From Gemmatimonadota bacterium (GTDB lineage Bacteria; Gemmatimonadota; Gemmatimonadetes; Gemmatimonadales; GWC2-71-9), in the NCBI GenBank assembly GCA_025357945.1, contig JANYLJ010000019.1:1-64000 (forward strand): a DNA stretch of 64,000 nucleotides, in the 5' to 3' direction. A program made the position numbers and the translations under genes. The notes under the pieces are model-generated. The model was not told the origin of the DNA and did no database searches. It saw only the letters and a program-made list of their open reading frames with translations. Positions 30,885 through 33,960 of this stretch are shown one piece after another. Within the stretch, counting starts at the first letter, position 1; each line of letters begins with the position of its first letter.

Positions 30885-31553
30885 CTATGTGCGACGCCCC
30901 ATGATGCCCGCCGACGGACAAATGTCGTTCAGCACACACGCTTCGCACTTCGGTCGATTGGCAATGCAGATCCGGCGCCCGTGCCAGATCAGCAGGTGGC
31001 TGACCACGGCCCAATCGTCACGCGGTACGAGGTGCATCAACTCCTGTTCCAGTTTCTCCGGGTCAGTTGCGCGCGAAATGCGGAGCAGCGCCGACAGGCG
31101 CAGCACGTGGGTGTCGACCGTCACTCCTTCGCTGGTATCGAACGCGTTGCCGAGGATCACGTTCGCGGTCTTCCGTCCGACACCGGGGAGGGGACGCAGT
31201 TCGGCCATCGTGCGCGGGATGCGGCCATCGTGGTTGGCCACGACCGCCTGGGCCATCCCGATCAGGCTCTTCGCCTTGTTGCGAAAGAAGCCAGTCGAGC
31301 GGATCACGTCCTCGACCTCGCTCGAGTTCGCCTGCGCCAAGGTGTCGGCATCGGGCCAGCGCCGGAACAGTTCCGGTGTGACCATGTTGACGCGCACGTC
31401 GGTGCATTGCGCCGACAGGATCGTGGCCGCCAACAGTTCAAATGCGTTGCCGTAGTTCAACTCGCAGTGTGCGTCGGGATACAACCGCTTCAGGCGAGCG
31501 ATGATGTCGAGCAGGCGGGCCTGGAGCGCCGCACGGGACTCCCTTCGACTCAT
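30885..31553 (-). CDS. nth: Endonuclease III
   Basis: [17 protein letters not shown], Hh[19 protein letters not shown], Fe-S loop C-X6-C-X2-C-X5-C. Confidence 0.96.
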
Positions 31554-31576: not shown

Positions 31577-33301
31577 TCAGGACGACCCCCTGCGGGCTCG
31601 GGCAAATGCGAGGAACCCGTCGACGTCGCGACAATTCAGGACCGCGTCCGGGCCGAGGCCACCTTTGCGGGCGATACCGACACCGAACTCGACGTTGGCC
31701 AGCCCGGCGATATTGTGGGCATCGGCGCCGATCGAGATTGTCACCCCGCGCGCTCGGGCGTCGGTGAGGACGCGCCAGTCGAGGTCGAGCCGATGCGGGT
31801 CGGCGTTGATTTCGATCGCAACACCGGTCTCCGCCGCCTTCGCGAACACCCGGTCGAGATCGATCGGGTACGCCTCGCGCGATAGCAGCAGCCTCCCGGT
31901 CGGGTGGCCGAGGATCGTGAGATACCGTGAGTCCATGGCACGGCACACGCGCTCGGTCATTTCGTCGCGACTGAGGTTGAAGCGGGAGTGGATCGACCCG
32001 ATGATGAAGTCGAATCCGGCGAGCACCTCGTCGGGGTAGTCCAGGGCACCGTCGACCAGGATGTCGCTTTCGATCCCCTTGAGTACGCGAAATCCCGACC
32101 GCGTGGTGTTGACCGCGTCGATCTCCTGCCACTGCTTCCCCACGGCCTCGGCCGACAGGCCACCGGCATATGCGGCCGCACGCGAGTGGTCGGTGATTCC
32201 GACGTACTGATACCCGGCCGCCTGACAGGCCTGGGCGATCTGCTCGACCGAGTTGCTGCCGTCGGATGCACCGGTGTGACAGTGGAGAAATCCTCGCAGC
32301 TGGGCGCGCTCGACCAGATGCGGCACCGGACGGCCGACCTCCTCGCCGGTTTCGCGCAATTCGGGCGGGATCCACGGCAGGTCGAGTGCTGCGTACAACG
32401 ACTGTTCGGTCGGCGTCGGCACGAAACGACTCCCGTGCCAGAGCGCCGTACCGGCGAGGTTGAAGCCGTGGTCCGTCGCGTGCTTCGCCAGCGCCGCGAG
32501 ATGTGCCTCACTGCCGGTCGCCTGGAGCAGCACCGCGCCAAGATTTTGCGGCGGCGTGATCACCACTTGCACGCTGCCGCCGCCGGCGAAACGGAGCGTG
32601 ACCCGTCGCTCGTCGTCGCCGGCGATTTCGTTGACGCCCGGCATGGCGCCGAGCTGGCGAAAGACATCCTCGGGCGGGACATCCGCCACAAGCACCGTGA
32701 CCAGCTCGCGCACCACCTCGCAGCGACGGCGTACCTCGCCCGCGGTGTGCGCGGCGACGATGTGTGGCAGCCGGGCGAACGCCGCGCGGAAGGCCTCAGC
32801 TTCCTGTGCCGCGTGATGCGAGAGCCGCCACTGGCTTGCCTGGCGCAGGAATGCGATCCCCTGGAGGATCTTCTCGGCGGTGCGCTGGCCGAAGCGGGGC
32901 AACGCCGCAAGGCGGCCATCGCGCGCCGCGTCCTCGAGGTCGGGGAGCGTTTCGACGCCAAGGGTTTCCTGAATCTGCCGGATCTTGGCGACGCCGAGTC
33001 CGGGAATCGCGAGCATGTCGACGAGGCCGGGCGGAACATCGGCCCGCAACTCCTCAAGGACCCCGGCACGGCCGGTGGTCACCAGCTCGGTGACGATCTG
33101 GTGGATCGCCGGTCCGATTCCCTTGGTCTCTGCGAGTGATCCGTCGGCGATCCCGGCGGCGAGTTCGCCGGAAAAGCCGAGCACGCTGCGGGCGGCGGCG
33201 GTGAACGCCCGGACACGAAATGGGTTCTCGCCCTTGAATTCGAGATAGGAGGCGATCTGCTCGAGCGAGCGCGCCACGCCAGTGCGATCCATCATGGTCA
33301 T
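31577..33301 (-). CDS. PolX-family protein (HhH + degenerate Pol beta-like domain + PHP domain)
   Basis: N-terminal 8-kDa/HhH region, TGS motif, PHP motifs HCHTGASDGSN, ITDHS, GSIHSRF, LGHPTGRLL, SIGADAH; catalytic DxD and third Asp absent. Confidence 0.9.
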   Translation of the reverse strand: MTMMDRTGVARSLEQIASYLEFKGENPFRVRAFTAAARSVLGFSGELAAGIADGSLAETKGIGPAIHQIVTELVTTGRAGVLEELRADVPPGLVDMLAIPGLGVAKIRQIQETLGVETLPDLEDAARDGRLAALPRFGQRTAEKILQGIAFLRQASQWRLSHHAAQEAEAFRAAFARLPHIVAAHTAGEVRRRCEVVRELVTVLVADVPPEDVFRQLGAMPGVNEIAGDDERRVTLRFAGGGSVQVVITPPQNLGAVLLQATGSEAHLAALAKHATDHGFNLAGTALWHGSRFVPTPTEQSLYAALDLPWIPPELRETGEEVGRPVPHLVERAQLRGFLHCHTGASDGSNSVEQIAQACQAAGYQYVGITDHSRAAAYAGGLSAEAVGKQWQEIDAVNTTRSGFRVLKGIESDILVDGALDYPDEVLAGFDFIIGSIHSRFNLSRDEMTERVCRAMDSRYLTILGHPTGRLLLSREAYPIDLDRVFAKAAETGVAIEINADPHRLDLDWRVLTDARARGVTISIGADAHNIAGLANVEFGVGIARKGGLGPDAVLNCRDVDGFLAFARARRGSS

Positions 33302-33960
33302 CGCGCGACCTCCTCGCCGGCGGCTACGCGCCAGCCGAGCAACAGCAGTTCGTCAGGTCCGCTCACCGCGTGCAAGTGCGCGGCGTCGCCACCAGGCATC
33401 GTCGGCGCGAAGAGCGGTGTACCATCGTCGCGTTCGACCTTCGCCGGGTGCGGACCCGCGACGGCCACCACCGACACGCCCGGCCGTTGTTCGTGCACGC
33501 CAAAGCAGGCAACTACCCGCAATTCCGTATCGCCGGGAATCGTGAACCATCCATCGAGTGGTTCGAACGGTTCCTCGTCGGCCAGCTGGCCCCAGACCAG
33601 GCGCGGTGCGATCTGAATGTACCGCGTCGGCGTCGCTCCGAGCGGAGTTCGACCGGAGGGACGCCACCCAGGATGACAGAGCTGGCGTGTCCCGGATTCG
33701 TCGAGCGCGACCGTGTGCTCGCCATCCCGCCAGAACAGGTAGGCGGCATGTACGAGCGCAACGAAGTCGTCCACCGCGTCGCCGAACCCGTCGTCGGGCC
33801 GCAACTCGCGCATCAACTCGAGCGCGGCGGCGGCAAGCAGGAACGCGTGGCTGTCGGAGTCGTCACGAAGCTCCGTGCGGATGGCGGGGAAACGGGCCTC
33901 GCGAAATCCTCCGAACATCAACTCGAACGGATGCGGTCGCGGCGGCACGGCACGGCTCAT
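33298..33960 (-). CDS. Conserved hypothetical protein, translationally coupled to PolX-like gene
   Basis: ATGA overlap; fully open 220 aa. Confidence 0.65.
   Translation of the reverse strand: MSRAVPPRPHPFELMFGGFREARFPAIRTELRDDSDSHAFLLAAAALELMRELRPDDGFGDAVDDFVALVHAAYLFWRDGEHTVALDESGTRQLCHPGWRPSGRTPLGATPTRYIQIAPRLVWGQLADEEPFEPLDGWFTIPGDTELRVVACFGVHEQRPGVSVVAVAGPHPAKVERDDGTPLFAPTMPGGDAAHLHAVSGPDELLLLGWRVAAGEEVAR

Follow-up and report, generated by a model that had tools for sequence, protein, structure and literature searches.

The window, i.e. the whole stretch of 64,000 nucleotides that was analysed, carries a polX-like gene, which lies between a gene for a 220-aa protein and nth, the gene for endonuclease III. 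The respective features are as follows.

33298..33960, minus strand: gene for a 220-aa protein, 4-nt overlap with the polX start (ATGA)
31577..33301, minus strand: polX-like gene, noncanonical PolX, 574 aa
33050..33301, minus strand: N-terminal 8 kDa (HHH_8) domain, residues 1-84 (Pfam PF14716)
32831..33049, minus strand: helix-hairpin-helix region, residues 85-157 (Pfam PF14520)
32531..32830, minus strand: palm, residues 158-257, full length, catalytic triad lost (alignment and model strands)
32735..32737, minus strand: codon of E189, position of the dNTP-binding Ser of GSxRR (alignment)
32705..32707, minus strand: codon of E199, position of catalytic Asp 1 (alignment)
32699..32701, minus strand: codon of V201, position of catalytic Asp 2 (alignment)
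32567..32569, minus strand: codon of Q245, position of catalytic Asp 3 (alignment)
32360..32530, minus strand: fingers (Pfam label 'DNA_pol_B_thumb'), QATGSEAH in place of YFTGSKxH
31580..32299, minus strand: PHP nuclease domain, residues 335-574, metal ligands complete
30885..31553, minus strand: nth, endonuclease III, 222 aa (TIGR01083, 244 bits; PF00730)

The polX-like open reading frame (31577-33301) scored 427.7 bits against the PolX equivalog NF006375 (cut-off 426), matched the thumb, HHH_8, HHH_5 and PHP families of Pfam and was aligned to Thermus PolX with an E value of 2e-103. Its product has the domain set of bacterial PolX (PolX1), consisting of the 8 kDa and HhH domains, palm/fingers and a C-terminal PHP domain, and is 35% identical to Thermus PolX (PDB 3au2) over the full length. 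It shares the domains and the PHP active site of canonical bacterial PolX, such as the B. subtilis and Thermus enzymes, but lacks their Asp triad, and their YFTGSK and GSxRR motifs read QATGSE and GEVRR. For the 220-aa protein (33298-33960) no Pfam or NCBIfam match was found; its gene is conserved upstream of polX in many divergent-polX loci, at about 27-66% identity and across several families in the phylum.

Altered polymerase site and intact PHP site

In the alignment, the catalytic triad D, D, D of Thermus PolX corresponds to E199, V201 and Q245, with GDLD aligned to RELV and VDL to VQV, which agrees with the initial annotation in that DxD has become ExV and that the third Asp is changed. 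Its wording that all three aspartates are replaced is correct insofar as no Asp is left, but acidity is not lost altogether, since E199 represents a conservative D to E exchange. A one-residue gap in the HMMER alignment means that triad position 2 could also be T202; neither V201 nor T202 is acidic. The dNTP-binding residues are likewise substituted, namely the Ser of GSxRR by E189, the steric-gate Tyr by Q260 and K263 by E265.

Across the clade of 31 homologues that includes the window PolX, the triad mostly reads D/E-V/I-Q/R. Position 1 is D in 16 sequences, E in 14 and S in one (D/E in 30/31), position 2 is V, I, T or A in 30/31, almost always V or I, and E in the remaining one, and position 3 is Q, R or T throughout (31/31). 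The window protein does not carry the catalytic Asp triad of canonical PolX1 (E199, V201, Q245 instead), and its non-acidic V201 and Q245, its substitutions in the dNTP site (E189, Q260, E265) and its conserved PHP active site are those of a noncanonical PolX.

In PolX enzymes that have been characterised, the Ser of GSxRR contributes to the pocket for the dNTP (PMC9226535). This Ser is kept in all of the 78 PolX with an acidic triad, replaced in 53 of the 57 triad-altered ones and acidic in all 31 sequences of the window clade. In five to six independent pairs, Ser and triad changed in the same direction and never in the opposite one (sign test, median p 0.031). This joint loss of Ser and triad supports a real loss of polymerisation, and the coupled pattern suggests that the Asp-bearing sister PolX still use nucleotides.

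The C-terminal PHP metal motifs, already described as complete in the initial annotation, contain all ten ligands (H340, H342, D347, D371, H372, E411, H438, H466, D527 and H529), which are invariant across the 31-sequence clade. The same holds for R470, R475, N499, R504 and K546 along the DNA path, which match by position residues of B. subtilis PolX whose mutation cripples the nuclease activities (PMC6616362).

Distribution of triad loss and linkage to nth

The initial annotation had proposed to survey catalytic-Asp loss across the phylum. Matches to the PolX query (E ≤ 0.001) were obtained in 169 of the 201 sampled genomes, the weakest being partial matches only, and 137 sequences including outgroups were aligned, of which 78 have an all-acidic triad and 59 do not. 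The PolX of the phylum fall into two kinds: those with YFTGSK and the Asp triad, and divergent ones in which the motif reads (R/Q/W)ATGS. In a quick tree, which was built without the palm and fingers columns and includes no Bacteroidetes sequence, the window PolX belongs to the set of 31, all triad-lost (SH-aLRT 91, not starred), which is located among Asp-bearing sisters. The triad state requires 13 changes on this tree, at least eight of them on branches with good support. A common clade with the D. radiodurans and rhizobial noncanonical PolX was rejected (AU p 0.0097, no Bacteroidetes included), so that in this comparison shared descent with the main Bacteroidetes/Deinococcus noncanonical cluster was not found. 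Judged from these sequences, the window lineage appears to have lost the triad independently.

Further triad losses occur in Gemmatimonadota (GDR, ADR, TDR, RVE, EEQ, EDS, EVT and others; sequences L106-L111, L124, L131, L142, L143, L058, L092, L095, L101, L102 and L105), several of which are apparently independent on the tree.

As stated in the initial annotation, polX is encoded next to endonuclease III: nth is the next gene downstream and begins 23 nt past the polX stop. This arrangement is lineage-wide: of 73 distinct loci of divergent-motif PolX, 69 have nth immediately behind polX in the same orientation; the four loci without an adjoining nth comprise two distant triad-lost lineages, one Polyangiaceae locus and one fragment. 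Among YFTGS PolX loci, nth is adjacent in 2/35, both from Clostridia, and in none of the 25 canonical Gemmatimonadota loci. In the literature that was searched, no publication connecting PolX of Gemmatimonadota with nth was found. Relatives with a retained Asp triad share the polX-nth linkage, which therefore does not by itself explain the triad loss; it is probable that the repair context predates the loss of polymerisation. The two Clostridia sequences (L026, L027) are Asp-bearing YFTGS PolX encoded directly upstream of nth, which branch close to the root of the divergent clade, and the polX-nth pairing may accordingly be older than the triad loss.

Regarding other repair functions, the source genome encodes endonuclease IV, and no exonuclease III was found in it at the thresholds used. 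The presence of endonuclease IV rules out PolX as the sole AP endonuclease of the cell. Ku was not detected in this 99.8%-complete genome at the thresholds used, yet it is present in four of the five surveyed genomes of the same genus and in 125/201 genomes of the phylum sample; it was also not found in several other genomes with a divergent PolX.

Constraint on the palm and alternative explanations

Palm and fingers show none of the deletions that are frequent, although not required, in noncanonical PolX. The palm comprises 99 residues in the window PolX (98-99 in its clade), compared to 98 in Thermus, 85 in D. radiodurans and 21-77 in rhizobia, and the fingers comprise 51 residues in the window PolX, its clade and Thermus. 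With PHP identity about equal, the palms are 57% identical within the clade, 42% in the mostly Asp-bearing sisters and, for canonical PolX, 53%. The corresponding ratios of palm to PHP divergence are 1.25, 1.93 and 1.11, respectively; their jackknife ranges are non-overlapping, but the statistic is pairwise and not fully corrected for phylogeny. Against its two nearest relatives, the window PolX has a palm pN of 0.06 and a pS of 0.57-0.59; these are raw values, because synonymous sites are near saturation and dN/dS would be unsafe. The window PolX is under purifying selection, and the dead palm is strongly constrained rather than decaying, nearly as much as in canonical polymerases. Motifs kept in the palm region of the clade are DERR, GG, VTPP-N-GAVL-QATGS and ALW-GS-FVPT. 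The palm is also predicted to be folded, as the AlphaFold2 model (mean pLDDT 89) contains five palm strands (181-188, 200-206, 223-227, 233-238 and 243-249). In the PDB, the model best matches the PolX structures of Thermus and Deinococcus; the global TM is about 0.7 and the rmsd is high, probably owing to a different domain arrangement.

The replacement of catalytic residues alone could resemble the decay of a gene or domain, or an assembly artefact. However, the same pattern is common to 31 related sequences from separate genomes, which argues against an assembly error, and the palm, with pN far below pS, is more conserved than in the Asp-bearing sisters; pseudogene and assembly error were rejected on these grounds, and we give them hardly any credence. 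A full-length, constrained palm would also fit continued DNA synthesis, with E199, acidic like its counterparts (D/E) in 30 of the 31 clade members, and other acidic residues standing in for the Asp triad. PMC9226535 cites a report of polymerase activity for the D. radiodurans AEE enzyme, but found this enzyme inactive as a polymerase itself. In the window clade, moreover, position 2 is almost always V or I, position 3 is Q, R or T, the dNTP-binding Ser is acidic without exception, and both the steric-gate Tyr and K263 have given way to other residues, which makes an active palm very improbable.

A nuclease-only PolX could alternatively act mainly in the processing of double-strand break ends together with Ku and LigD. 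The published genome-level association of noncanonical PolX with Ku and LigD end joining (PMC9226535) and the frequency of Ku in the genus and the phylum speak for this role, but Ku was undetected in this nearly complete genome and in several others with a divergent PolX, and the neighbouring gene is nth, neither ligD nor ku. A Ku/NHEJ partnership was rejected for this genome, and we regard end processing as an unlikely main function.

Proposed function and relation to known PolX

The loss of the triad and the dNTP site, the invariant PHP ligands and the linkage to nth are best read as a nuclease-only PolX derivative, as the initial annotation had proposed from sequence. Endonuclease III (Nth) excises oxidised bases, and its beta-elimination step results in a blocked 3' end. 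Because polX is encoded directly with nth, cleaning of Nth products or cutting of AP sites is its likely job, and we infer that the protein has lost polymerase activity and probably works with Nth as a 3'-end trimmer and AP endonuclease in base excision repair. The 8 kDa and HhH domains together with the dead palm and fingers would bind gapped or nicked DNA, and the PHP domain with its metal ions (Mn2+ in characterised relatives) would cut AP sites or trim blocked or damaged 3' ends, the substrates being Nth products or AP sites. The gap would then be filled by another polymerase, e.g. Pol I. That no exonuclease III was found in the genome speaks for this role; on the other hand, since endonuclease IV is kept, the cell may be able to deal with AP sites without the PHP activity.

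The good conservation of a dead palm raises the question of why it is kept, and its strong constraint suggests a role beyond passive DNA binding, which the nuclease-only explanation does not specify. A tentative answer, which we consider possible rather than probable, is that the palm was repurposed and came under new strong constraint after polymerase loss, with the former triphosphate site becoming uniformly acidic, and that it now serves as a module for contact with the substrate or a partner, e.g. by passing the Nth product to the PHP nuclease.

Noncanonical PolX, in which the triad is partly or wholly missing, account for 809 PolX sequences (27.5% of prokaryotic PolX; Prostova et al. 2022, PMC9226535), including the enzymes of D. 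radiodurans (AEE) and D. gobiensis (ARE), which are polymerase-dead, Mn2+-dependent 3'-5' exonucleases. A 2026 publication confirms that conservation is higher in the PHP domain than at the polymerase site (PMC12926913). The term 'Gemmatimonad' is absent from the main text of both publications. The window PolX has the domain order, altered triad and dNTP site, and intact PHP domain of D. radiodurans PolX (PDB 2w9m), but its palm and fingers are untruncated, whereas Deinococcus and rhizobial forms have shorter palms and, according to the AU test, a separate triad loss. Actinobacterial PolX-like proteins (PMC12926913) likewise have a PolX-type PHP domain without a working polymerase, but lack the polymerase region; the window PolX has this region in full, and the model shows it as folded. 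The window lineage adds an apparently independent polymerase loss to the PolX family, and the steps of this loss can be read because the phylum still contains Asp-bearing sisters in which the gene order is the same. While the main study of noncanonical PolX tied such proteins chiefly to end joining and to ligD (PMC9226535), the constant pairing with nth points to a concrete role for a nuclease-only PolX, i.e. 3'-end cleaning in base excision repair. The protein class is already described; new are this variant and its nth context.
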